64,000 nucleotides of DNA from Candidatus Obscuribacter phosphatis. Its GTDB lineage: Bacteria > Cyanobacteriota > Vampirovibrionia > Obscuribacterales > Obscuribacteraceae. This document shows, in pieces, positions 480 through 56,698 of the stretch. The translations under genes were made by a program, and so were the position numbers. The first letter of the stretch is position 1, and every line of letters starts with the position of its first letter. The stretch is from NCBI GenBank assembly GCA_001899315.1, contig MOYA01000004.1, forward strand, positions 118,477 through 182,476, given 5' to 3'. The notes below the pieces were generated by a model. The model saw nothing but the letters and a program-made list of their open reading frames with translations, did not search any database and had not been told where the DNA came from.

Positions 480-1481
480 TTATTTAGAGCAAAGAACTCC
501 GCGTTCAGCCAATTTGCGCTTAAGCTCGGGCATCATTTCTTTGGCAGCTTTCACACCGGCTTCGTAACCCCTCATACCGTCTGCCTTTTTGCGTGATATG
601 AGTGAAATGCCCTTGGTATCAGGGTGAATAACCACATCGGCATCTTTGCACTGTTCTACGTCTTGAGCGTTGAGCTGGATGCGAAGAGCTTGTTTGCTCA
701 CCGAGCCAATCTTTCTGAAATTCTTGATAGGCTGGTCCACCAGAGGCTCATCGATGTCGACGGCGATAACAAAGTCGGCACCCATTTCGCGCACATGGTT
801 GACCGGCACATTACAAATCAGTCCACCATCGCAATAAAGCTTGTTTTCAATTTCAACTGGCTTTCTGAGACCAGGCACGGCTGTACTGGCTTGCATGGCG
901 GTGCCAAGATCGCCATGGGTAATGCGACAGCTTTCACCGTCCACCATATTGGTCACCACTGCAGCAAAGGGGATGTTGAGCTTATCGATGGCTGAATGCT
1001 TGCCGGCTAGTCTATTGGCGTAGTCTCTAAATTTACCGCCGTAATAAAGACCGTCATAGGGGTGATGACCAAACAGTCTAGGCATGACCATAATCGGCGC
1101 CACCAAAATACGAACAGAAAGGGGCACAGTCATAAAGTGCTTCATCAACTCAGAATCTTGAAAGCGATTGGCTATTTCTTCAACCGGCATACCTGAGGCA
1201 TACAGACCGCCTACCACACTACCGATGGAAGTGCCGGCGATAACATCTATCGGAATGCCTTCGTCTTTCAACACTTTGAGCACACCGGCATGGGCTGAGC
1301 CACGCGCTCCGCCGCCACCAAGAGCCAGACCTATTTTGGGTCGAGCCCGACTGGTATCTTCTGCACTGCTGCTTTTAGCCGGTGCTGTCGGTTCGGCTGT
1401 TGTTTCATCAGCGAAAACAGCATTGCCGCCGATCATGATAGTCATGCTGGCGATAAGAGGAAGAAGGGCTAATTTTTTCAT
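480..1481 (-). CDS. Secreted patatin-like phospholipase
   Basis: This is a patatin/RssA-type acyl hydrolase that would cleave phospholipid or lipid esters with a Ser-Asp dyad. The oxyanion loop GGGGARG is at about residues 55-61, the nucleophile elbow GTSIG puts the catalytic Ser at residue 85, and the DGG motif puts the Asp at 218. The frame extends 30 codons further upstream, but the ATG at 1481 is preferred: it follows AGGTC and begins a signal peptide (MKKLALLPLIASM, then a hydrophobic stretch ending AVFA). A Ser/Thr/Pro-rich linker follows, so the enzyme is probably exported. There is no beta-barrel domain, unlike PlpD-type type V secreted patatins. Substrate unknown. Confidence 0.88.
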   Translation of the reverse strand: MKKLALLPLIASMTIMIGGNAVFADETTAEPTAPAKSSSAEDTSRARPKIGLALGGGGARGSAHAGVLKVLKDEGIPIDVIAGTSIGSVVGGLYASGMPVEEIANRFQDSELMKHFMTVPLSVRILVAPIMVMPRLFGHHPYDGLYYGGKFRDYANRLAGKHSAIDKLNIPFAAVVTNMVDGESCRITHGDLGTAMQASTAVPGLRKPVEIENKLYCDGGLICNVPVNHVREMGADFVIAVDIDEPLVDQPIKNFRKIGSVSKQALRIQLNAQDVEQCKDADVVIHPDTKGISLISRKKADGMRGYEAGVKAAKEMMPELKRKLAERGVLCSK

Positions 1482-1728
1482 TTTGGTTTTGACCTGAAGC
1501 GAGCTTGCTTGAAGAAGACGCGAGAAGCGCCTTTGGGATTCTATCAGGTCAAGTATGCCAATTCCTGACAAGTTTGTCAGATAGCTTTCATATAGCTTAA
1601 AGGTTGTTAGTTATTCTCTAAGCTTTGCCGCCGCCTCAAATAGGCAATAAGAGCCTTTCAACTGAATTTTTAGGGCAGTCTCTACAATCAGAAATAGCTA
1701 GTGAACTAATTTTTTAGCGCACTCTCCA

Positions 1729-2331
1729 CTAATCGGCAATAGCTTTTGAATCAGAAGCTACCACAGCAAAAAGGTCTTTCAAAGCAGCCAAGGTAGCGTT
1801 ATGCAGGTCGCGCGCCTTGACCACTTCGCCGCCCTTTGTCGCCGAAGGCAAATCGCGGGTGGCGCAGGCAGAAGCCACGACAGTGACAGGATAAGCCAGG
1901 GCATGGGCTGACCTCACCGTAGTACTGATGCAGGCATGAGTCATAAAGCCGGTAACTATAAGGTTTTTCAAACCAGCCTTTTTGAGCTGCTCGTCTAGCT
2001 CGGTCCCCACAAAGCTGGAAGGTTGAGACTTATCGATGATGCTATCTTCGCTCTGCGGCTTTAGTTCATCGACGATTTGAAAATAGGGTCCGTCCGGATC
2101 AAAAATAGGAGCCCCGCTCATTGTTTTGTGCCTAACAAACCAAATTTTGCCTCCGGCACGACGGGAGCGCTCTACCAAGCCGGCAATCTCTTCCACAGCC
2201 TGCTCAAAACCAGAAAGAGGCAAGGCTCCGTCTTTGTACTCACGCTGAGCATCGACAACAATCAGTGCGCTTTCCGATAGCTTGCTAGGACAGCCCTCGG
2301 CATTGAGCATTTGCAATAAGGTCTTAGCCAT
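1729..2331 (-). CDS. Isochorismatase-family cysteine hydrolase
   Basis: This is a cysteine hydrolase of the isochorismatase/nicotinamidase fold, 200 residues, cytosolic. The expected triad is visible: Asp27 in VVDAQ, Lys101 in the IDKSQPSSF segment, and Cys134 in THACIS after the typical LIVTGFMT strand. The family hydrolyses small amides or vinyl ethers (nicotinamide, isochorismate, carbamoyl compounds). No siderophore or NAD genes are nearby, so the substrate cannot be named. It is on the same strand as the GT9 gene, 39 bases downstream of it, and could be the last gene of the dnaA-dnaN transcript. Confidence 0.85.
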   Translation of the reverse strand: MAKTLLQMLNAEGCPSKLSESALIVVDAQREYKDGALPLSGFEQAVEEIAGLVERSRRAGGKIWFVRHKTMSGAPIFDPDGPYFQIVDELKPQSEDSIIDKSQPSSFVGTELDEQLKKAGLKNLIVTGFMTHACISTTVRSAHALAYPVTVVASACATRDLPSATKGGEVVKARDLHNATLAALKDLFAVVASDSKAIAD

Positions 2332-2370
2332 TTCTATCCTTTTTTTGAACTCTATAAAAACAAGACAACT

Positions 2371-3291
2371 TTAGCTCAGCAGTTCTTTCAGTTCATTAAA
2401 GACAGCCTGGGGAGAGATGCCGTAAAGACAACGCTCCTTCTCATCTTCGAGGGCACAGGTCAAAGGCTCCCAGAGTTGCCAGACCGGATAAGCCAACTTC
2501 TCATTGGGACTGTCGGCAAATTCTCGCTCTAGGCAAACAGCTGGGCAAACTGGGCCGACAAGCGAGCGCACATGCTTGTAGGGACGCATAAACATGTTGT
2601 TATAGCGAAAAATAGAGACTGTAGGCACTCCTTGATGCACAGACAAATGCATCAAACCGGTGTCAACAGCAACCACTGCTTTGGCGCTGCTGATTAAGTC
2701 TAGGGCGTCGCCAATGCCGGGGGTCGGCTCGTGGGGAAGACCCGCTTCTATGACATTAGCCACAATTTGGCAGCGCTCCGGTTCGCCTATGACAAGCACC
2801 GGTATTCCTTGCTCTTCAAGCAGCTGAGCCAAGGTTAGCCAATGCTTTTCAGGCCAGCATTTGAAGTGTCCAGCCGAGCCGGGAATAAAAATCACAGTCT
2901 GGCTCAAATCTTGACGCTTGTGAAAAGAGAGCGGCTGCAAACTAAAGTCGCAGTCAATTTGAAAGTCACGACAGATACCCTTCAAGACATCGAGTATTTT
3001 GTAGCCTGGATAAAGATCATTGAACTCTTTCGAACCCCAGATCGATGAAGACTGCAGGGGATGATCTCTAAAGTTGAAATAGCGGTCACCGGCCTTTAGT
3101 TCTTCCGGCTTAAACTCTGACTCTTTGATGCTGCCTGCCAACCCCTCTATCTTGTCAGAGAGACCATACTGAGCCGGCGAGCGCATTATCAGATAGGTTT
3201 CGTGACCGCTCTTGATGAGGGCATGCAAAATTGGAATCGTGACGATTAGATCGCCAAGACCATTTGAGACTGGAGCGAGATAATATGCCAA
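2371..3291 (-). CDS. Glycosyltransferase family 9 (heptosyltransferase-like)
   Basis: This is a GT-B glycosyltransferase of the heptosyltransferase (GT9) family, which transfers sugars to lipopolysaccharide core or similar glycans at the inner face of the cytoplasmic membrane. The N-terminal GLGDLIVTIP motif (residues 11-20) is the acceptor-side signature. The C-terminal nucleotide-sugar half shows FIPGSAGHFKCWPEKHW (135-151) and the diagnostic AVDTGLMHL (208-216). Length (306) is slightly short for the family. Its presence supports a glycolipid outer membrane. It lies 18 bases after the small exported gene that follows dnaN, so it is probably in that transcript. Confidence 0.85.
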   Translation of the reverse strand: MAYYLAPVSNGLGDLIVTIPILHALIKSGHETYLIMRSPAQYGLSDKIEGLAGSIKESEFKPEELKAGDRYFNFRDHPLQSSSIWGSKEFNDLYPGYKILDVLKGICRDFQIDCDFSLQPLSFHKRQDLSQTVIFIPGSAGHFKCWPEKHWLTLAQLLEEQGIPVLVIGEPERCQIVANVIEAGLPHEPTPGIGDALDLISSAKAVVAVDTGLMHLSVHQGVPTVSIFRYNNMFMRPYKHVRSLVGPVCPAVCLEREFADSPNEKLAYPVWQLWEPLTCALEDEKERCLYGISPQAVFNELKELLS

Positions 3292-3309
3292 TTTTCCTCT
3301 TTCTCTAAA

Positions 3310-3798
3310 TCAAGGACTATCAGCCTGCAAAACATCCAGTCCAGCTGCTATTCGCCTAGCCAGCTTTTCAACTGTGATAGTTTCACTGGCATAAGGCTTG
3401 CGGTAGACGACCTTGCTCTTGTTAGTAATTAGCTTATCCATTAAATGACTGGCTGCCACCGGATCTACTTGGCGCATCAAAAGAAAAAGATAGATTTTAC
3501 CTGCGCTTGTGGCATTGGTGAAGCGGGCTTTAATAACCGCTGCATTGACCTGAGCCGGTGAAGCATTCTTGAGCCGCTTAAACGCCAGCCAAAGCTCACC
3601 GGCAGTGGGTTTGCCCTGCGAGTAATAATAGACCGAAGATGCTTTACCCAGACTGTTTAGGTCGGAGAGGTTATCGGCTAAAGCTGCTCCAGCCGTAAAA
3701 GAGAGAAGCAAAAGAATGGAACAAGAGATGAGAGCAGCAGTGATTATAACTTTTGAAATACGGCTTGGCAGCTCAAAGACAGATAGCGGAAAGCGCAC
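3310..3798 (-). CDS. Small exported or membrane-anchored protein of unknown function after dnaN
   Basis: The 162-residue product starts with a positively charged segment and one hydrophobic stretch (about residues 16-42, ending AGAALA), read as a signal peptide or an N-terminal anchor. The rest is helical and polar, with no cysteines and no motif I recognise. The start lies 3 bases after the dnaN stop, so translation is probably coupled to dnaN. A GT9 gene follows at once. The spacing supports a real gene; the function is not known. Confidence 0.7.
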   Translation of the reverse strand: MRFPLSVFELPSRISKVIITAALISCSILLLLSFTAGAALADNLSDLNSLGKASSVYYYSQGKPTAGELWLAFKRLKNASPAQVNAAVIKARFTNATSAGKIYLFLLMRQVDPVAASHLMDKLITNKSKVVYRKPYASETITVEKLARRIAAGLDVLQADSP

Positions 3799-3801
3799 AG
3801 C

Positions 3802-4998
3802 CTATTTTGCCTGTACAGGCATGAGCAGGTATTTGTAGTTCTCGTCACCGATGCCCTTGATGATCAGAGGCTTGAGCGGACCGGTCATTTCCAGCTTGAC
3901 TTCATCTACACCCAGTCGTTGCAAAACATCAGTCAAATAGCGCACGTTGACGGCGACATCGATGGTTTCGCCTTCCAGTCCGATTGAAACTTCTTCCTGA
4001 GCACGTCCAACGTCAGGTGTATTGGCTGAAATCTGTACCATATCAGCTTCAAAGTGCAGCTTGATCAAGTGAGTACGGTCATCAGACATAACCGCCACAC
4101 GTTCGATCGCTCCCACTACTTCATCACGTTTGAAACTCGCCAAATGGCTGTAGTCTTTGGGAAAGAGTGTCTGGTATTGGGGATATTCGCCGGAGATGAG
4201 GCGGGTGGAAAGGAAGTGGCTCTCGGTCTCAAAAGTAATCTGACCATTAACCACAGCCAGTCTCACATCTTTGCCGTCTTGGCTGTCGAGAACTTTGACA
4301 ATTTCGGTGCAAGACTTGGCAGGAATAATTGCTTTCAAGCTGACTGGTTTTTCAAGAGTGGCTGTAGCAGACTTGGTTTCGCCTTCTACTTCCATGGCAG
4401 CATCGCTTTCTTCGACGGCGCGAGCGGCTGGGACGGCTACATTCAATTTTTCAAAGCGGTGAGCAAGACGGGAACCATCTGTGGCTGTACATTCGAAGTT
4501 GCCATTATCGATGACCAGATAAACCCCGCCTAAGATGCTGCTGGTGTCGAAAGCGGCGGCGGCAAAAGCTGTTTGCACAATACTCTTTCTAAGCACATCG
4601 GAAGGCATCAAGACGCCTTCGCGCGAACGACTTTCGGCTGTCTTGGGGAAATCATCAGCGGGTAGACCAGTGATGCTGAACTTAGAACGTTTGCAGGTAA
4701 CCGAGGTTTCGAAGGTGTCTTTGTTTACTTGAAAAGAAACCAAGTCACTCGGCAGCTTGGAGACGATCTCGAGCAACTTCTTACCGGGCAAAGTGATTGA
4801 ACCTGGTGTATAGACAACCCCGGTGGCCTTGGTTTCGATTGTCAAATCAAGATCGGTACCGTGGAATTTAACTGTGGTTTCGTCAAGACTCTCAATCAAG
4901 ACATTGCTGAGAATCGGCTGCACGACTCTGGTTGCAAGAGCGCTGGTCACATCTTTAAGGGCTTTCACCAGGACATCTTTTTGAACTGCAAAGTGCAT
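3802..4998 (-). CDS. dnaN: DNA polymerase III sliding clamp (beta subunit)
   Basis: The protein is the ring-shaped processivity clamp that tethers the replicative polymerase to DNA. It begins MHFAVQKDVLVKALKDVTSAL, with the typical RVVQPILSNVLIE first strand, has the central RLISGEYPQY signature, and ends in LMPVQAK, matching the usual C-terminal LMP(V/M)R. It has 398 residues against about 370-380 for most clamps. The excess is an acidic, Ser/Thr/Glu-rich insertion around residues 195-215 in the second domain, which reads as a surface loop. It lies downstream of dnaA on the same strand, separated by the oriC candidate, which is the ancestral bacterial order. Confidence 0.97.
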   Translation of the reverse strand: MHFAVQKDVLVKALKDVTSALATRVVQPILSNVLIESLDETTVKFHGTDLDLTIETKATGVVYTPGSITLPGKKLLEIVSKLPSDLVSFQVNKDTFETSVTCKRSKFSITGLPADDFPKTAESRSREGVLMPSDVLRKSIVQTAFAAAAFDTSSILGGVYLVIDNGNFECTATDGSRLAHRFEKLNVAVPAARAVEESDAAMEVEGETKSATATLEKPVSLKAIIPAKSCTEIVKVLDSQDGKDVRLAVVNGQITFETESHFLSTRLISGEYPQYQTLFPKDYSHLASFKRDEVVGAIERVAVMSDDRTHLIKLHFEADMVQISANTPDVGRAQEEVSIGLEGETIDVAVNVRYLTDVLQRLGVDEVKLEMTGPLKPLIIKGIGDENYKYLLMPVQAK

Positions 4999-5391
4999 TT
5001 GTTGAAACCTCGGGAATTATTTGCTTAACGATCCAGTTGTATATATAAAGGAACGACTTCCGATGTGTTGTGCTTAGTGCCCTGGAAATCTCCATAAAGA
5101 TTACCGTCTGCGGGGAATATTTTCAACTTCTCTCTAGTGTGTTTTTGGCAACCTGAGCCATCTTTAGCATTTCTACTCTTGTTAGTTCAATAAATTTAGT
5201 TATATAGAAGTAGGAGGGGAAGCCAATTTTTGTAGATAAGCCTTGAAACTTAAACCCTGTCCGAAGATCCCCTGTAGAAAACTTGTCTGTGCTTTGTTGA
5301 TAAAGAAAAGTCGTATATACGCCAAGTGGTGGGGATTGCACAGAGGGCTTACAACAAGCGGACAACTTTTGCACAAGTTTTCTACAGGCAG
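4999..5391. other. oriC: Candidate chromosomal replication origin (oriC) between dnaA and dnaN
   Basis: The gap between dnaA and dnaN holds a cluster of sequences matching the relaxed DnaA-box form TTWTNNACA within 160 bases. These are TTATCTACA (minus strand, 5231-5239), TTTTCTACA (minus, 5273-5281), TTATCAACA (minus, 5295-5303), TTTTGCACA (plus, 5367-5375) and TTTTCTACA (plus, 5378-5386). Two of them lie in a perfect 16-base inverted repeat (5271-5286 against 5373-5388). An AT-rich stretch (about 5180-5208) next to the cluster could be the unwinding element. Box identity is judged by eye; a GC-skew switch over the whole chromosome would confirm it. Confidence 0.6.
5271..5388. repeat. Perfect 16-bp inverted repeat carrying DnaA-box-like sequences
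   Basis: CCTGTAGAAAACTTGT at 5271-5286 is the exact reverse complement of the 16 bases at 5373-5388. Each arm contains TTTTCTACA, one base from the cyanobacterial-type box TTTTCCACA. The right arm touches the end of dnaA. The arms are 86 bases apart, too far for a simple hairpin, so a paired protein-binding site is more likely. Confidence 0.7.
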
Positions 5392-6867
5392 TTAATCTGC
5401 CAACTGGCTTGAGATTTGCTTTACCGACTGCGCTAGATTGGGGTCTTTGGGCATGGCCTCTTTTATTCTAGAGTGCGCATATAGAGCAGATGTATGTTTG
5501 CGGTTACCGAAGGCTTCACCAATTCGTGGGAAGCTCATCTTGATAAGCTCGTGGGCCAAATACATAGCAATATGCCTTGGCAAGGTGAGGTCCTGACTAC
5601 GTTTTGCCGAGCGCAGTTCGCTGGGTTCGACTCGATAGTGCGAAGCCACTGTTTGAATGATGCGATCGATGGTTATGGTGGCTCTAGGCTTGTTATTTGG
5701 CACTGTGGGCTGCAACATACCGGCCAGCGATTGAACGGTCAATGCTTCGCCTGTGAGGCTGCTGTATGCGTTGGCCCTGATTAGAGCACCTTCCAACTCT
5801 CTTATGTTTGTGGTGAATACCGAGGCGATGTACTCAAGAGCATCGTCATCAATACGCATATTCTCGGCTTCGCATTTCTTGCGCAAAATGGCAACCCTGG
5901 TCTCTAAGTCAGGTGCTTGAATATCGGCTATCAGCCCCCATTCAAAGCGACTGCGTAGACGTTCTTCTAGGTGGGAAATGGCTTTGGGTGGACGATCAGA
6001 CGAGAGTACTATTTGTCTGCCTGAATCTCGCAGGGCGTTGAAAGTATGGAAGAACTCTTCCTGTGTACTTTCTTTGCCTTGCAAGAACTGAATATCATCA
6101 ACCAACAAAACGTCTACCTGCCGGTAACGTTTGCGGAAGTCGGACATGCGGTCGTCTCTAATCGAGTTGATGAGCTCGTTGGTGAATTTTTCGCAACTTA
6201 TATATCTGATTGAGGCATTGGGAGAATGTCGCAAAATCTCGTGGCCTATGGCATGCATGATATGTGTCTTACCAAGACCAACCCCTCCATATATAAATAG
6301 AGGGTTATAGGCTTGTCCGGGTCTTTGCGCCACTGCTAAAGCCGCCGAATGGGTGAAGCGGTTGTGGGCGCCTACGACAAAGGTTTCAAATAGATATTTG
6401 GCATTGAGATTGCTGCGGGCTGTCAACACCGAATCGGGTAAACGAGCGCTATTGGCGGGATTAGACTGTCCAAGCGACTGGAAGGGGTTTTGACTGGGAT
6501 AGCTTGGTTGAGCAATGGCAGGCTCTGCTTCTGTTCCCTCGGAACTGATACTGGCTATGGTGGCAGTATAATTGTCTGCTTTCACGCTCGGATCGACGAT
6601 TACCTTGATCGAGACCGGGCTGCCAATAACTTGTCCGATTGCTTCAGACACAGCAGCAGCGTAGTTATTAGCCACCATGCCGCGCATAAATTCGTTGCTT
6701 ACGGCAATAGAAGCCTGCCCCTGAGCCAATTCCACCAGTTGAGCCGGCCTAATCCAGCTCTCAAAGCTAGGCTGGCTAAGCTTTTTCTCCAGAATGACTC
6801 TGGCCTCGCTCCAGACATCTTTATTTGATTTGAGGAGGCGCACGTCTTCTGTATTTGAGTTTGTCAT
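5392..6867 (-). CDS. dnaA: Chromosomal replication initiator protein DnaA
   Basis: DnaA binds DnaA boxes, melts the origin and loads the replicative helicase. All four domains are visible. Domain I has VWSEARVILEKKLSQPSFESW near the N-terminus, then a Ser/Pro-rich linker. The AAA+ domain has Walker A GGVGLGKTH at about 194-202 and Walker B LLVDD at about 254-258. Domain IV, binding DNA, has the RHIAMYLAHELI helix and a DnaA signature that reads HTSALYAH instead of the common HTTVLHA. The frame opens 18 codons earlier (6921), but the ATG at 6867 fits the usual domain I start and has AGGAC upstream. Length is then 491. It is divergent from rpmH. Confidence 0.96.
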   Translation of the reverse strand: MTNSNTEDVRLLKSNKDVWSEARVILEKKLSQPSFESWIRPAQLVELAQGQASIAVSNEFMRGMVANNYAAAVSEAIGQVIGSPVSIKVIVDPSVKADNYTATIASISSEGTEAEPAIAQPSYPSQNPFQSLGQSNPANSARLPDSVLTARSNLNAKYLFETFVVGAHNRFTHSAALAVAQRPGQAYNPLFIYGGVGLGKTHIMHAIGHEILRHSPNASIRYISCEKFTNELINSIRDDRMSDFRKRYRQVDVLLVDDIQFLQGKESTQEEFFHTFNALRDSGRQIVLSSDRPPKAISHLEERLRSRFEWGLIADIQAPDLETRVAILRKKCEAENMRIDDDALEYIASVFTTNIRELEGALIRANAYSSLTGEALTVQSLAGMLQPTVPNNKPRATITIDRIIQTVASHYRVEPSELRSAKRSQDLTLPRHIAMYLAHELIKMSFPRIGEAFGNRKHTSALYAHSRIKEAMPKDPNLAQSVKQISSQLAD

Positions 6868-7179
6868 CGAAACTAAGGTCCTGAGTGGTAATTGGCTACG
6901 ATAGCCCTGTGATTGAGGCATTGCAAGTCGCTGGGCTACAATTTGTACTTGGCACGCTGGTCAAGGACTGACAAAAGATTTTGCAGCCGGCGCGCCAAAT
7001 TAGCCCAAACTCACCTGAAATGTCTCTAAGTGAGCAATTATTCGTAAATTTTTAGTCCGCCTTCATGGCAGACTTCTCGAAGTATTTGCAATAGATGATA
7101 GCATAGCTATGCCTTCGATAGAATGCGACAAAACGCCAAAAAATTTTTACTTGAATTCAGGTCAGGAGTTACATAAGAC
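6868..7179. promoter_or_regulatory. Divergent intergenic region between dnaA and rpmH
   Basis: This 312-base gap must hold the promoters for dnaA leftward and for the rpmH operon rightward. I see a perfect 12-base palindrome GCATAGCTATGC at 7101-7112 and an AGGAG ribosome-binding site at 7164-7168 in front of rpmH. No good DnaA box was found here, so the origin signals appear confined to the dnaA-dnaN gap. The exact promoter hexamers are not clear by eye. Confidence 0.4.
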
Positions 7180-7314
7180 ATGAAAAGAACACTCAGAGGT
7201 GCTATTCGCAAAGCCAAGAGAGGAAGCGGCTTTCTTAAAAGAATGTCTACCAAGTCTGGACAAAAAGTAATTAAAGCTCGTCGTGCTAAAGGCCGTTATC
7301 GCCTGTCCGTATAA
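7180..7314 (+). CDS. rpmH: 50S ribosomal protein L34
   Basis: The 44-residue, very basic protein begins [20 protein letters not shown] and ends [11 protein letters not shown], matching the L34 pattern of a KRT start, a central GF..RM.T..G segment and a terminal RR.KGR.RL. L34 is a late-assembling protein of the large ribosomal subunit. AGGAG lies 11 bases before the ATG. It heads the conserved rpmH-rnpA-yidD-yidC-jag operon. Confidence 0.97.
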
Positions 7315-7324
7315 GAGTCTTTTC

Positions 7325-7759
7325 TTGCTTCCGGCATCAGAGCGGGCGCGCAAGTCAAGCGTATTCACCCGTGCATACACTGCAAGGCGTTCAGTGTCTT
7401 CAGGTTGTCTGACGCTATACATATTGCACCGCTTCGTTCCAAAGCGCTTGAGGACCGAAAAGAATGGTCCTGCTGAAAACAAGCCTGCAAGGCTACTTGT
7501 GGGCTTTTCTATAGCAAAAAAAGTATTGAAAAGCGCTTGCCGCCGTAATCGCTGCAAAAGACGAGTGAGAGAAGCCTACAAAGCGGTCAAGAACGAGCTC
7601 TTGAGCGGCGATGAATTGGCCGAAGGCTTCAAACATTGGTATGCAGCCATTTTTGTTATAGGTGCCGAAGCTCAAGAGCTTCCTTATACCGATTTGAAAA
7701 GAGTTATGCGCGAATGCCTCGTCAAAGCCAATAAGAAATTCGGCAAAGCGAATCTGTAA
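7325..7759 (+). CDS. rnpA: Ribonuclease P protein component
   Basis: RnpA is the basic protein cofactor of RNase P, which trims the 5' leader from tRNA precursors. The family signature is clear: RLLVGFSIAKKVLKSACRRNRCKRRVREAYK, in which the RNR motif contacts the catalytic RNA. The TTG at 7325 gives MLPASERARKSSVFTRAY, which aligns with the usual MLPKEHRLRKS start, so I prefer it. A GTG at 7283 inside rpmH would add 14 residues with no family support. An insertion of about 15 residues lies between the N-terminal strand and the GFSIAKK motif. Six bases separate it from the yidD frame. Confidence 0.93.
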   Translation: MLPASERARKSSVFTRAYTARRSVSSGCLTLYILHRFVPKRLRTEKNGPAENKPARLLVGFSIAKKVLKSACRRNRCKRRVREAYKAVKNELLSGDELAEGFKHWYAAIFVIGAEAQELPYTDLKRVMRECLVKANKKFGKANL

Positions 7760-7765
7760 AACACA

Positions 7766-8104
7766 TTGATAAATTATCTGACCGACAATAAATGTAATTT
7801 CGACTGCAAGCCGACTGACAAAGAGGCTGGTTATGGCCAAGCGGCTATGTTTGCCGATTGTAGCGGTCTTGGTTTGTTGTCAAGGATGGCTTTGTTTGTT
7901 CTCTGGCTCTATCAGAAGACTCTGATTTTGAGACAGCCATCATGCAGGTTTTATCCATCCTGTTCACAATATATGGCTGTAGGGATCAGGCGTTTTGGTT
8001 TTTTTAGGGGTCTCTTTCTGGGGCTGAAAAGACTATGCAAATGTCATCCCTATCATGAAGGCGGCATCGATGACGTGCCCGACCATTTTTCTCTTTTGAG
8101 GTAG
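7766..8104 (+). CDS. yidD: Membrane protein insertion efficiency factor YidD
   Basis: YidD is a small membrane-surface protein that helps YidC-dependent insertion. The core runs from [20 protein letters not shown] through [16 protein letters not shown] to [16 protein letters not shown], with the conserved Cys-Arg-Phe-x-Pro-x-Cys and K-C-H-P motifs. The frame from the TTG at 7766 gives 112 residues, longer than the usual 70-85. Internal ATGs at 7847 (85 residues) and 7886 (72 residues) fit the family length better, but none has a strong ribosome-binding site, so the start is unsettled. It lies between rnpA and yidC as in most bacteria. Confidence 0.92.
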
Positions 8105-8111
8105 CCGTAGC

Positions 8112-9377
8112 GTGGACTTTATTACTTATCAGTTAATGATTCCTTTTCTGCAGTTTGTTGTGCAGAAAACCCAAAGCTATGGTCTTGCCATAATCATGCT
8201 TACCTTGGCAGTGCGTGCCCTGGTGTGGCCCCTGGTTTCTAAGTCGACCAAAAATATGCAGAAGATGGGCAAGTTGTCGCCCATGCTCAAAGAGCTGCAA
8301 GAGCGCTACAAAGACGATCAAGAAATGTTGCAGCGCAAGATGATGGAATTTTGGTCGGTCAACAAAGTCAATCCGATGAGCGGTTGCTGGCCTATGTTGG
8401 TGCAGTTGCCGATCTTGTTGGCCCTCTTTGGTACCTTCAACGGACCGCCTTTTTCAGACAAGCCCATAGATGTGCCGGTCAAAGTTATTGAGGCAAAAGA
8501 AAGCGCTAAGAGAGAGCATAAAGAAGTATCTGGATCAAACTGCCCTTATGTCTCTAAGGACGGAAAAGTAGCCAAGCTGGTTGTTTTCCCCGGTGAGAGC
8601 AAGGCGGTAGAAGGCGATAAGGTCGATTTTTCCACCCGTGTGGTTGAAGGTGAAGTACCGGCTGATTTCAAAGTGAAATGGCAGGTACAAAAGGGTGCCA
8701 CCCTGGCCAAAGCTGATGAAGCCACCATTGACCAAGAGGGGCATGCTGTCTTTCTCAAGCCCGGTGACTATAAAGTAGAAGCCGTTGTTGAGGGTGTGGC
8801 CAAAAACGACTCTTTCTTGTTTATCAATTCACTCGGCAAAAAAGCCACCGGTCTGGAGCTGCTCAAACCCGAGAATCTCGACCTAGTGGCCATGATTGCT
8901 TTGTTTGGTCTAACCATGTTTCTATCTTCGAAACTGACCATGACCACCCCCAAAGACCCCAGCCAGATGGATGAGCAGCAGCGGGTTCAGGCTGATACAG
9001 CCAAAATGATGCCCCTGGTTATGACTGCTACTTTTGTCATCATCCCTTTGCCTGCCGGTGTTTATCTTTATATGTTGGTATCAAGCTTGGTGCAGACCTT
9101 GCAAACTTGGCTGATTATGCGCAAGCCGGCACCCGACCTGATCGATGTCGATGCTAATGGAAAAAATGCACCGACTGGTCTAAATAATCCCAATAATCAA
9201 AGGAATCCCAAAGTTATCGATATTGGCACAGCGCCTAGTTCTCAGAACAGCGGCAAAAACGGCAAGAACGGTGTTTCTTCCGATGAGGGCGCGACCATTC
9301 AGTTCGATCCAGATAAACTCGCCAAAGAAGGCGAGACTGTGGAAAAAGGCAAGTCAAAAAAGAAAAAGAAGAAGTAA
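8112..9377 (+). CDS. yidC: Membrane protein insertase YidC/Oxa1/Alb3 with an inserted extracytoplasmic domain
   Basis: YidC inserts and folds proteins in the cytoplasmic membrane. The core is present: a first TM segment with FVVQKTQSYGLAIIMLTLAVRALVWPL, the cytoplasmic coiled-coil loop PMLKELQERYKDDQEMLQRKMMEF, the NPMSGCWPMLVQLPIL segment, and two late TM helices around residues 250-330. It starts at a GTG and has no proteobacterial P1 domain. Between the second and third conserved TM segments (about residues 125-245) sits a beta-rich insert that looks Ig-like (VEGDKVDFSTRV, FKVKWQVQKG, PGDYKVEAVV). The C-terminus is polar and ends in a run of lysines, as in ribosome-binding tails. Confidence 0.94.
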   Translation: MDFITYQLMIPFLQFVVQKTQSYGLAIIMLTLAVRALVWPLVSKSTKNMQKMGKLSPMLKELQERYKDDQEMLQRKMMEFWSVNKVNPMSGCWPMLVQLPILLALFGTFNGPPFSDKPIDVPVKVIEAKESAKREHKEVSGSNCPYVSKDGKVAKLVVFPGESKAVEGDKVDFSTRVVEGEVPADFKVKWQVQKGATLAKADEATIDQEGHAVFLKPGDYKVEAVVEGVAKNDSFLFINSLGKKATGLELLKPENLDLVAMIALFGLTMFLSSKLTMTTPKDPSQMDEQQRVQADTAKMMPLVMTATFVIIPLPAGVYLYMLVSSLVQTLQTWLIMRKPAPDLIDVDANGKNAPTGLNNPNNQRNPKVIDIGTAPSSQNSGKNGKNGVSSDEGATIQFDPDKLAKEGETVEKGKSKKKKKK

Positions 9378-9380
9378 ACC

Positions 9381-9917
9381 ATGAATCTAAGCCAATTTGA
9401 CGATAATGCAAAAAGCTATTTGGAGAAAATCCTAGCCATTTTGGACATCGAAGCCGAGGTCTTGCAGGAAGATGTCGACGACACAACCACTTGTTATCGC
9501 ATCGAGTGCAAGTCGGATGATGCTCGTATTTTGATCGGTAAGAACGGTCAAACGCTCGAGTCTCTGCAGTTTGTAGTGCGCCAGATGGTGAAGAGCAAAA
9601 CCCTTGATAGAAGCCACTTTATCGTTGATGTCTGCGATTATCGCGGCAGAAGACGCCGTACTCTGGAAGAGCAAGCCAAGAAAGGCGCTGTTGCCGTGTT
9701 GAACGGTGATTCAGAGCGCTTCCCTTTGATGCCGATGACTGCCTATGATCGCCGCTTGGTGCATAATTATTTGCAAGAAAACTTCCCCGACCTGGCATCA
9801 GAAAGTGAAGGCGAAGGCGAAGGACGCCACATCGTCATAAGCTTTAAAGGACTGGAAGATGGCGAGGGCGGCGAAGACCATGGTGATGAAGCACACGATG
9901 GCGACGTCGAAGAATAG
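9381..9917 (+). CDS. jag: KH-R3H RNA-binding protein (Jag/KhpB family)
   Basis: This is an RNA-binding protein of the Jag/KhpB family, usually cotranscribed with yidC. A KH domain with ILIGKNGQTLESLQFVV (about residues 50-66) carries the G-x-x-G loop, and an R3H domain follows (MTAYDRRLVHNYLQE, then GRHIVISF). It lacks the N-terminal Jag_N domain found in Firmicutes, and the C-terminus is a Gly/Glu/Asp-rich acidic tail. The start is 3 bases after the yidC stop, so it is translationally linked. A strong terminator follows. Confidence 0.92.
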   Translation: MNLSQFDDNAKSYLEKILAILDIEAEVLQEDVDDTTTCYRIECKSDDARILIGKNGQTLESLQFVVRQMVKSKTLDRSHFIVDVCDYRGRRRRTLEEQAKKGAVAVLNGDSERFPLMPMTAYDRRLVHNYLQENFPDLASESEGEGEGRHIVISFKGLEDGEGGEDHGDEAHDGDVEE

Positions 9918-55239: not shown

Positions 55240-56430
55240 TTACGCCACTTTCGACTCTTTCTCCTGCGCTTCTTCCTTTTGCAAGATGCGGCTTGCTTCC
55301 ATTATTGATTTGTAGATTTCGCGCACTTTTTTGGCTATTTGCGGCATTGAACAATGTTTGACGACCATATCGAGAACATCTTGTTCGCGTTTGACGTCGC
55401 GAATGGGCAGCTTCAATTCGGCTTTCAGTTCACCGACTTCCATAGCTAAGAGCAAACGCTTTTCGAGAAGTGTGGCGATGGTGGCGTCCAGTCTGTCTAC
55501 TTCGTGGCGAATCGAATGCAGCTCTGAAGCCATGGCGTCGCGCAGGCTCAGTGATACGACCGCATCTCTTTTGGCGGCAGTGTTGGCTGCGACAGGCATT
55601 TTTCTGCCTACTGCTTCGGCGATGGGCACCAAGCTTTCGACAATTTCCAGCATGTGCTCAAGTGAAATAGCTTGTCTGGCGTCTGAAACCGATTTTTCCG
55701 GTTCGGGATGGCATTCGATCATGAGACCGTCGGCGCCGCAGGCGATTGCCGCACGAGCTAGATCTGCCACCATTTCACGCTTGCCGCAGGCATGGGAAGG
55801 GTCGACTATGATGGGCAGATGGGTCATCTGTCTAAGAGCTACTACGCCGCCAAGATCGAGAACATTTCGGGTGGCTGTGTCGTAACTTCTGATGCCGCGT
55901 TCGCACAAGATTACTTTGTTGTTGCCGCCGGCCATGATGTATTCGGCGGCCATGAGGAATTCATCTAGGGTGGCCGATAGACCGCGCTTGAGAATGACTG
56001 GTTTGTCTAGTTTGCCGATATGTTTGAGCAGCTCGAAGTTTTGCATGTTGCGGCTGCCTATTTGCAGAACGTCAGCTGTGTGAACGGCTATGTCGGCGTG
56101 TTTTTCAGACATGACTTCGGTGATCACCGGCATATTGTAGGTCTTTGATATTTCGCCCAAAATTGCCAGCCCTTCTTCGCCCATGCCCTGGAAGGCGTAT
56201 GGTGAGGTGCGCGGTTTGTAGACGCCGCCTCTGATGGCGTTTATGCCTTTATTATTGAGTGCTTTGGCGACTGTGTGCATTTGTTCAGACGATTCTACCG
56301 AGCAGGGTCCGCCTACAATCAATAGGGTTTTGCCGCCGCAGGTAACGCCTTCCGAGATTTTTACTTCGCTTCTTTGATTGGTCTCGGTAAGCTGAGCTTT
56401 CATCTGTTCATTAGTTTGTGCCTGAGCCAT
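55240..56430 (-). CDS. aroF: DAHP synthase fused to chorismate mutase
   Basis: The enzyme starts the shikimate pathway by joining phosphoenolpyruvate and erythrose-4-phosphate. Residues about 25-290 are a type I-beta DAHP synthase: VGGPCSVES, GGVYKPRTSPYAFQGMGEEGL, QIGSRNMQNFELLKHIGK, KRGLSATLDEFLMAAEYI, and the metal-binding VDPSHACGKR and ECHPEPEKSVSD. Residues about 310-380 are an AroQ-type chorismate mutase (IRHEVDRLDATIATLLEKRLLLAMEVGELK). Catalytic domain first and mutase last is the order known in Bacteroidetes such as Porphyromonas; Bacillus has the reverse. The ATG at 56430 follows AAGGAAAG. A leader-peptide attenuator lies upstream. Confidence 0.94.
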   Translation of the reverse strand: MAQAQTNEQMKAQLTETNQRSEVKISEGVTCGGKTLLIVGGPCSVESSEQMHTVAKALNNKGINAIRGGVYKPRTSPYAFQGMGEEGLAILGEISKTYNMPVITEVMSEKHADIAVHTADVLQIGSRNMQNFELLKHIGKLDKPVILKRGLSATLDEFLMAAEYIMAGGNNKVILCERGIRSYDTATRNVLDLGGVVALRQMTHLPIIVDPSHACGKREMVADLARAAIACGADGLMIECHPEPEKSVSDARQAISLEHMLEIVESLVPIAEAVGRKMPVAANTAAKRDAVVSLSLRDAMASELHSIRHEVDRLDATIATLLEKRLLLAMEVGELKAELKLPIRDVKREQDVLDMVVKHCSMPQIAKKVREIYKSIMEASRILQKEEAQEKESKVA

Positions 56431-56470: not shown

Positions 56471-56505
56471 AAATAAAAAGACCGCTGCATTTACTGCAAG
56501 CGGTC
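56471..56505 (-). terminator. Attenuator terminator upstream of the DAHP synthase gene
   Basis: On the minus strand GACCGCTTGCA (56505-56495) pairs with TGCAGCGGTC (56489-56480), with one bulged base and a short loop, followed by TTTTTATTT. It lies before the gene, not after one, so it acts as an attenuator. Its 5' arm overlaps an alternative pairing with the end of the leader-peptide frame. Confidence 0.85.
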
Positions 56506-56550
56506 CGCCTCGGGAATTCAGCAACGTGAATCAATTCACCCCGGGCGAAC
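56503..56550 (-). promoter_or_regulatory. Antiterminator pairing between the leader end and the terminator arm
   Basis: GTTCGCCCGGG (56550-56540, codons 13-16 of the leader) can pair with CCCGAGGCGGAC (56514-56503) with one bulged A and one G-U wobble. This uses the first bases of the terminator's 5' arm, so the two structures exclude each other. A small hairpin GTGAATTGATTCAC sits inside the loop. When a ribosome finishes the leader it covers the first arm and the terminator forms. Confidence 0.7.
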
Positions 56551-56586
56551 CTCTGTAAACCAAAAATAAAAGCCGTAGTAGCGCAT
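56536..56586 (-). CDS. Aromatic leader peptide of the DAHP synthase attenuator
   Basis: The 16-residue frame reads MRYYGFYFWFTEVRPG and stops at TGA. Seven of 16 residues are aromatic (three Tyr, three Phe, one Trp), all within codons 3-10, followed by the two exclusive RNA pairings. GGA lies 7 bases before the ATG. This is the layout of trpL- and pheL-type leaders: a ribosome short of charged tRNA-Tyr, -Phe or -Trp stalls in the run and lets the antiterminator form, so transcription reaches the DAHP synthase gene. The start is 156 bases upstream of that gene. Confidence 0.8.
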   Translation of the reverse strand: MRYYGFYFWFTEVRPG

Positions 56587-56641: not shown

Positions 56642-56698
56642 GCAAGTTCATACACGATATTGGCAACGGCAAAATACGTCAACACATTTTGAACTTGC
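56642..56698 (-). promoter_or_regulatory. Promoter of the DAHP synthase leader inside a 9-bp inverted repeat
   Basis: On the minus strand TTGACG (56682-56677) and TATCGT (56659-56654) have a 17-base spacer and would start transcription about 60 bases before the leader ATG. GCAAGTTCA (56642-56650) and TGAACTTGC (56690-56698) are exact reverse complements flanking this promoter and may be an operator pair. Confidence 0.5.

Follow-up and report, generated by a model that had tools for sequence, protein, structure and literature searches.

Putative leader-peptide attenuators, usually two in series, upstream of a DAHP synthase gene in Cyanobacteriota

In Candidatus Obscuribacter phosphatis, a gene encoding a fused DAHP synthase–chorismate mutase (aroF) is preceded by a compact leader, which we term element A. 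Its sequence and modelled folding indicate that it is very probably a ribosome-mediated transcription attenuator of the trpL/pheL kind, which would read the charging of phenylalanine, tyrosine and tryptophan tRNAs and control aroF. Like members of that class, element A combines a cluster of product codons in a short open reading frame (ORF) (seven of eight codons aromatic, and conserved in relatives), a covarying terminator with a U-tract between the leader ORF and the structural gene, and a competing antiterminator whose 5′ strand would lie under a ribosome at the stop codon (the effect of such masking on folding is positive in most relatives and weak in the DNA analysed here). Predicted consensus promoters occur upstream of the leader, with none of high score after the terminator. 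The attenuator reading put forward in a preliminary description of this DNA is strengthened by relatives, in which aromatic leaders, terminator and alternative helix are conserved with compensatory changes.

All parts of the element lie on the minus strand of a 64-kb stretch of DNA (the window). The leader ORF, MRYYGFYFWFTEVRPG, occupies 56536..56586 including its stop: it begins with an ATG at 56586, runs for 16 codons to a TGA at 56538–56536, and has matching leaders in relatives. Within codons 3–10 are seven aromatic residues (three Tyr, three Phe and one Trp, encoded by TGG). A predicted sigma-70-type promoter, TTGACG-17-TATCGT (56654..56682; consensus scan), lies approximately 100 nt 5′ of the leader; the Shine–Dalgarno sequence 5′ of the leader is weak (GGAT), and a small U-rich hairpin is predicted over the aromatic codons. 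The 5′ arm of the antiterminator, GGTTCGCC (56544..56551), spans the last base of codon 12 to the first bases of codon 15. It can pair with the 3′ arm, GGCGGACC (56502..56509), which is marked out by helix covariation and competing folding energies and overlaps the base of the terminator 5′ arm. The intrinsic terminator hairpin (56480..56506; predicted −16.7 kcal/mol) reads GACCGC(TTGCAGTAAATGCA)GCGGTC at 56505–56480 and is followed by TTTTT; the U-tract, TTTTTATTT, occupies 56471..56479. A covariance model of the whole element, R1, matches 56471..56562 with an E value of 3.1e-15 (converted from G000:C4:174947-175038). The putatively regulated gene, aroF (55240..56430), starts with an ATG at 56430 and encodes a 396-residue protein with a type I DAHP synthase domain (Pfam DAHP_synth_1) and a C-terminal chorismate mutase domain (CM_2). 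The fusion had been correctly recognized in the preliminary description, and its positions for leader frame, terminator and gene agree with the minus-strand sequence to the base.

Relatives of aroF were drawn from two sets, the GTDB family of the host and a collection covering 84,980 species genomes, and the upstream regions were scanned for short aromatic ORFs. A leader of type A, which ends in VH[RL]x or VRxG, is found upstream of aroF in 101 of 112 fetched loci (not all of these are independent, as some genomes are present in both sets). In about 82 of the 112, a different ORF with its own terminator, leader B (for example, MTYFSSWFYGFYFWPRASSG or MIRYFWYYGFTVPGHSPG), lies between A and aroF, and the usual arrangement is two putative attenuators in series. 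Leader A is present in Obscuribacterales-type genomes as well as in oxygenic cyanobacteria, among them Nostoc, Calothrix, Fischerella, Leptolyngbya and Nodosilinea. Orthologues with the hairpin but without aromatic codons would have spoken against attenuation, as the preliminary description noted; the opposite was seen in both groups, in which aromatic leaders are conserved. Leader A shows a modest synonymous excess (211 observed versus 155 expected), and a stereotyped core, SWFYGFYFWPR, is conserved in the B leaders of Nostocales. Promoter-like TTGACR-17-TANNNT sites recur at most loci, mostly 37–98 nt upstream of A, and the consensus scan found none scoring ≥10/12 between terminator A and aroF, an arrangement that fits a single transcript running through A and then B. 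The genus of the window has A only, with B absent in all three genomes (L001, L004 and L005); as these loci read, the genus has lost B and the window holds a reduced, single form.

Both helices of element A covary. In an alignment of 56 element A sequences (A1), GGTTCRYC at the leader end and GGYGRACC ahead of the terminator form an 11-bp antiterminator helix, in which 95.1% of cells are paired and 6 of 11 pairs, and 45 cells, are changed on both sides. None of 500 shuffles, a control that leaves relatedness in place, reaches any of the observed measures, and sliding the helix by 1–3 columns lowers pairing to 28–54%. For the terminator, compensatory changes on both sides occur in 4 of 10 pairs (17 cells; 0 of 500 shuffles). 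In 14 sequences, a column shared by the two helices has G in place of A; there the terminator partner is C instead of U, and the antiterminator partner remains U, forming a U–G wobble. For B, whose MAFFT alignment (A2) is too ragged at the leader end for pairs to be counted, the antiterminator is supported by inspection and masked folding.

Masked folding, in which the RNA under the ribosome is removed, compared a ribosome in the middle of the aromatic run with one at the stop codon. The mean probability of the terminator basal pairs increases from 0.42 mid-run to 0.89 at the stop for A, and from 0.49 to 0.93 for B, without reversals in either. In the window copy, terminator base pairing under equilibrium folding is 0.79 with a stalled ribosome and 0.90 with the ribosome at the stop codon, the forced antiterminator and terminator structures are isoenergetic (−31.1 versus −31.2 kcal/mol), and switching is predicted to be weak. 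The two helices of this copy share only the basal 3–5 bp of the terminator and therefore compete for its base, not for the whole arm. The mutually exclusive pairing of the leader end with the terminator 5′ arm that had been proposed is thus retained as a covarying helix, and is narrowed in the window to those basal pairs. In the window, a ribosome stalled at Trp9 or Phe10 would itself mask part of the antiterminator arm; co-transcriptional folding could help the switch. This early masking, the weak predicted switching, the weak Shine–Dalgarno sequence, the modest synonymous excess and a Trp codon retained in a genus that seems to lack Trp synthesis all count against the attenuator reading.

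We infer the following sequence of events. RNA polymerase would start approximately 60 nt upstream of the leader ORF, trailed by a ribosome. With Phe-, Tyr- and Trp-tRNAs charged, the ribosome would quickly arrive at the UGA and mask GGUUCGCC, the terminator would form and the transcript would end near 56475. Were one aromatic tRNA scarce, the ribosome would stall in codons 3–10, leaving GGUUCGCC to pair with GGCGGACC; the terminator would then lose its basal pairs and polymerase would enter aroF. In most relatives, in which unit B follows A, the transcript would face two successive checkpoints, alike in kind and in aromatic repertoire.

Order-3 Markov simulations predict 0.025 short ORFs with seven of eight aromatic codons per 64-kb window, which, together with conservation, rules out chance as the origin of leader A. 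The real window holds two such ORFs, leader A and one at 9382 on the minus strand (MVYFFFFFFDLP...); the latter is an artefact, antisense to the Lys-rich C terminus of a YidC-like gene. In that part of the window (5392–9917), dnaA-, rnpA-, yidC- and jag-like genes are grouped together, an arrangement common to many bacterial replication origins. The single significant match of R1 in the host genome is at aroF; four further matches, all with E > 1, were rejected as copies of the element.

Linkage to aroF is strict in the genomes sampled from the phylum. R1 gives 38 strong matches in 386 genomes drawn from Cyanobacteriota; aroF of the window type (counted at E < 1e-100) is present in 37 of the sampled genomes, 36 of which carry R1, and the 37th (G192) has a B leader only. 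The two remaining strong matches adjoin broken aroF genes. In one (G431; L236, G431:C1:3949500-3958500; 824-7532), an insertion of about 6 kb that bears an integrase interrupts aroF, and in the other (G079; L234, G079:C48:71000-77500; ~2805-3126), element A is joined directly to a truncated aroF, a decayed copy. The insertion in G431, a large Nostocaceae-like genome, carries a recombinase-like ORF, is flanked on each side by a YAFQG-coding repeat, leaves both upstream leaders intact and resembles developmentally excised elements. Because R1 derives from related loci, the scan gauges specificity and reach and is not an independent discovery. Gut-type members of the same class gave matches with E 0.002–0.005, which were taken as noise. 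Thirty prephenate dehydratase-domain loci, used as a negative control, have no aromatic leader with a terminator upstream.

Leaders A and B carry matched codon repertoires. Their aromatic fractions correlate across 26 loci (r = 0.90 for Phe, 0.94 for Tyr and 0.73 for Trp) and across 16 clade means (0.91, 0.93 and 0.75; permutation P ≤ 2e-4), so that two differently sequenced ORFs read the same amino acid set. Several genomes of the family have two aroF genes, and the leaders of these paralogues are variously Tyr-only, Phe-rich, Trp-only or Phe/Trp. In G013, G014 and G015 the fused aroF has Phe/Trp leaders (with one Tyr in a G015 leader) and the A and B leaders of the second aroF are all Tyr-only or almost so; a chorismate mutase gene lies 3′ of the second aroF in G013 and G015, and G027 has the same split between its two aroF genes. 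A Phe/Tyr pair accompanies a Trp-only leader (LWWRGFAW) in G046, G023 has one Trp/Tyr-rich and one Phe-rich leader set, and in G029 a trp operon ends with aroF. The leader classes cluster only loosely on the aroF protein tree, and Tyr-only leaders may have arisen once or twice. We lean towards the view that Cyanobacteriota possess a dedicated, possibly ancestral, serial two-attenuator system before DAHP synthase, the leader codons of which were re-tuned after duplication, assigning isozymes to end products, with Trp codons dropped in some lineages that lost Trp synthesis. Leaderless relatives of these genes also occur. A second DAHP synthase-like type (~50–54% identical; L002, G000:C1:426131-426856, and L184–L187) has no aromatic leader upstream, and one clade of aroF paralogues is without its own leader (L188, L190, L196 and L197); in L188 and L190 the leaderless aroF lies near an adenylyltransferase-like gene.

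Profile searches found neither trpE (PF00425) nor trpA (PF00290) in the host (G000) or its genus-mates (G030 and G031), and were positive in 14 control genomes. The host genus is probably a Trp auxotroph, in which Trp would not be its own end product. The leader had been suggested to sense all three end products at once; the Phe, Tyr and Trp codons are indeed there and, because the Trp pathway appears to be missing, we read this as sensing of all three aromatic tRNAs. Among leader-bearing lineages that are at least 90% complete, G020 and G021 are without trpE and trpA and their leaders are without a Trp codon, and pathway-bearing genomes whose leaders were read have at least one Trp codon each. 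A strict link between Trp codon and Trp pathway, which G020 and G021 fit, was rejected; the link is suggestive only, because the genus of the window retains one Trp codon in leader A despite missing trpE and trpA. The trpE genes of the family (L148–L167) carry their own Trp-rich, trpL-like leaders with GWWRW-like runs, and Trp attenuation seems also to be present in these non-photosynthetic relatives.

Other mechanisms could in principle account for a conserved aromatic leader. As in TnaC or SpeFL, the nascent peptide might stall the ribosome with a free aromatic amino acid as ligand, rather than through tRNA charging. The stereotyped core of the Nostocales B leaders would suit such an arrest peptide; however, aromatic order and identity vary freely across loci (YFYFWF, FYYWF, YYYYY, FFFWF and WWRGFAW), the A and B repertoires shift together and the conserved C-terminal VH[RL] is accounted for by RNA pairing, and we regard this explanation as very improbable. 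It is harder still to credit a riboswitch or T-box, in which the leader RNA would itself bind uncharged tRNA or an aromatic amino acid, making the ORF incidental. A conserved, structured leader before an amino acid biosynthesis gene is what such an element would look like, but one helix and a terminator are too little conserved structure for an aptamer, and aromatic codons covary between two different ORFs. No Rfam family, the T-box with its consensus and specifier stem included, matches the 64-kb window or the aroF leaders of ten relatives; weak, sub-threshold Rfam matches to miRNA families and IS009 were disregarded.

We consider it unlikely, although deserving more weight, that B performed the real attenuation in this lineage and that A alone, as in the window, is a decayed remnant acting as a constant partial terminator. 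The absence of B from all three genomes of the genus, the weak switch of the window copy in folding and the missing Trp pathway would be expected of a remnant. Against decay, two members of the genus with differing flanks (L001 and L004) share an identical stretch of ~120 nt, leader through terminator, and in the third member the leader, helix and terminator persist with altered codons (RNFGFYYWF). Attenuation by aromatic tRNA charging remains our preferred reading of element A, in the window as in its relatives.

According to a 2016 survey, reliable data on attenuation in cyanobacteria did not exist (PMC4833913). Intrinsic terminators with U-tracts work with a cyanobacterial polymerase, and cyanobacteria lack Rho (PMC13289151). 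If the mechanism operates as inferred, classical leader-peptide control would reach a phylum whose cyanobacteria lack this factor, and would explain how entry into the shikimate pathway is controlled in Cyanobacteriota. The leader pairs, with codon repertoires that follow one another and the isozyme in question, would then constitute a natural experiment, and whether two same-signal attenuators in series sharpen a response or widen its range is testable.

The enteric trpL, pheL and hisL attenuators resemble element A in that cognate codons lie in a leader ORF and the antiterminator and terminator helices exclude each other. Each of the enteric attenuators reads a single amino acid; the codons of element A are usually of all three aromatic kinds. 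The enteric antiterminators also take the terminator arm more fully than the basal 3–5 bp taken in element A. Were leader codons to assign isozymes to end products, as we suggest above, this would be an RNA counterpart of the allosteric split among AroF, AroG and AroH in Escherichia coli.

The preliminary description suggested that such a leader for a DAHP synthase may be undescribed in cyanobacterial relatives. In the open-access subset of the literature we found no leader-peptide precedent for DAHP synthase in Cyanobacteriota (an earlier description elsewhere is possible), and precedents exist outside the phylum in Corynebacterium glutamicum and Acholeplasma. In C. glutamicum, aroF is preceded by the aroR attenuator (Neshat et al. 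2014, following PMC11802643; the leader also in PMC4046766), which similarly places a Phe-Tyr-Phe leader peptide before DAHP synthase; experiments are reported to show increased transcription when Phe is limiting, with a Phe response and no Tyr response (PMC11802643). Compared by its published description, aroR is actinobacterial and single, whereas the Cyanobacteriota element usually comprises two units in series, has 4–8 aromatic codons, usually of all three kinds, and has a conserved GGUUCRYC/GGYGRACC antiterminator. The uORFC-13-1 motif upstream of Acholeplasma aroF, for which attenuation has been proposed, also has a terminator next to a short ORF that contains Phe codons, before DAHP synthase; its 24 representatives come from Acholeplasma and environmental sequences only (PMC8632094), and its structure, by the published description, differs from that of element A. 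The Salmonella mgtCBR leader, called a singular example, likewise contains two short ORFs with attenuators in one leader (PMC3641672). Its tandem attenuators read different signals, ATP and proline, whereas A and B read the same aromatic repertoire, each with its own intrinsic terminator. The working principle is already known; what appears to be new is the phylum, the RNA family, the serial duplication with matched repertoires and the isozyme-specific tuning of leader codons.
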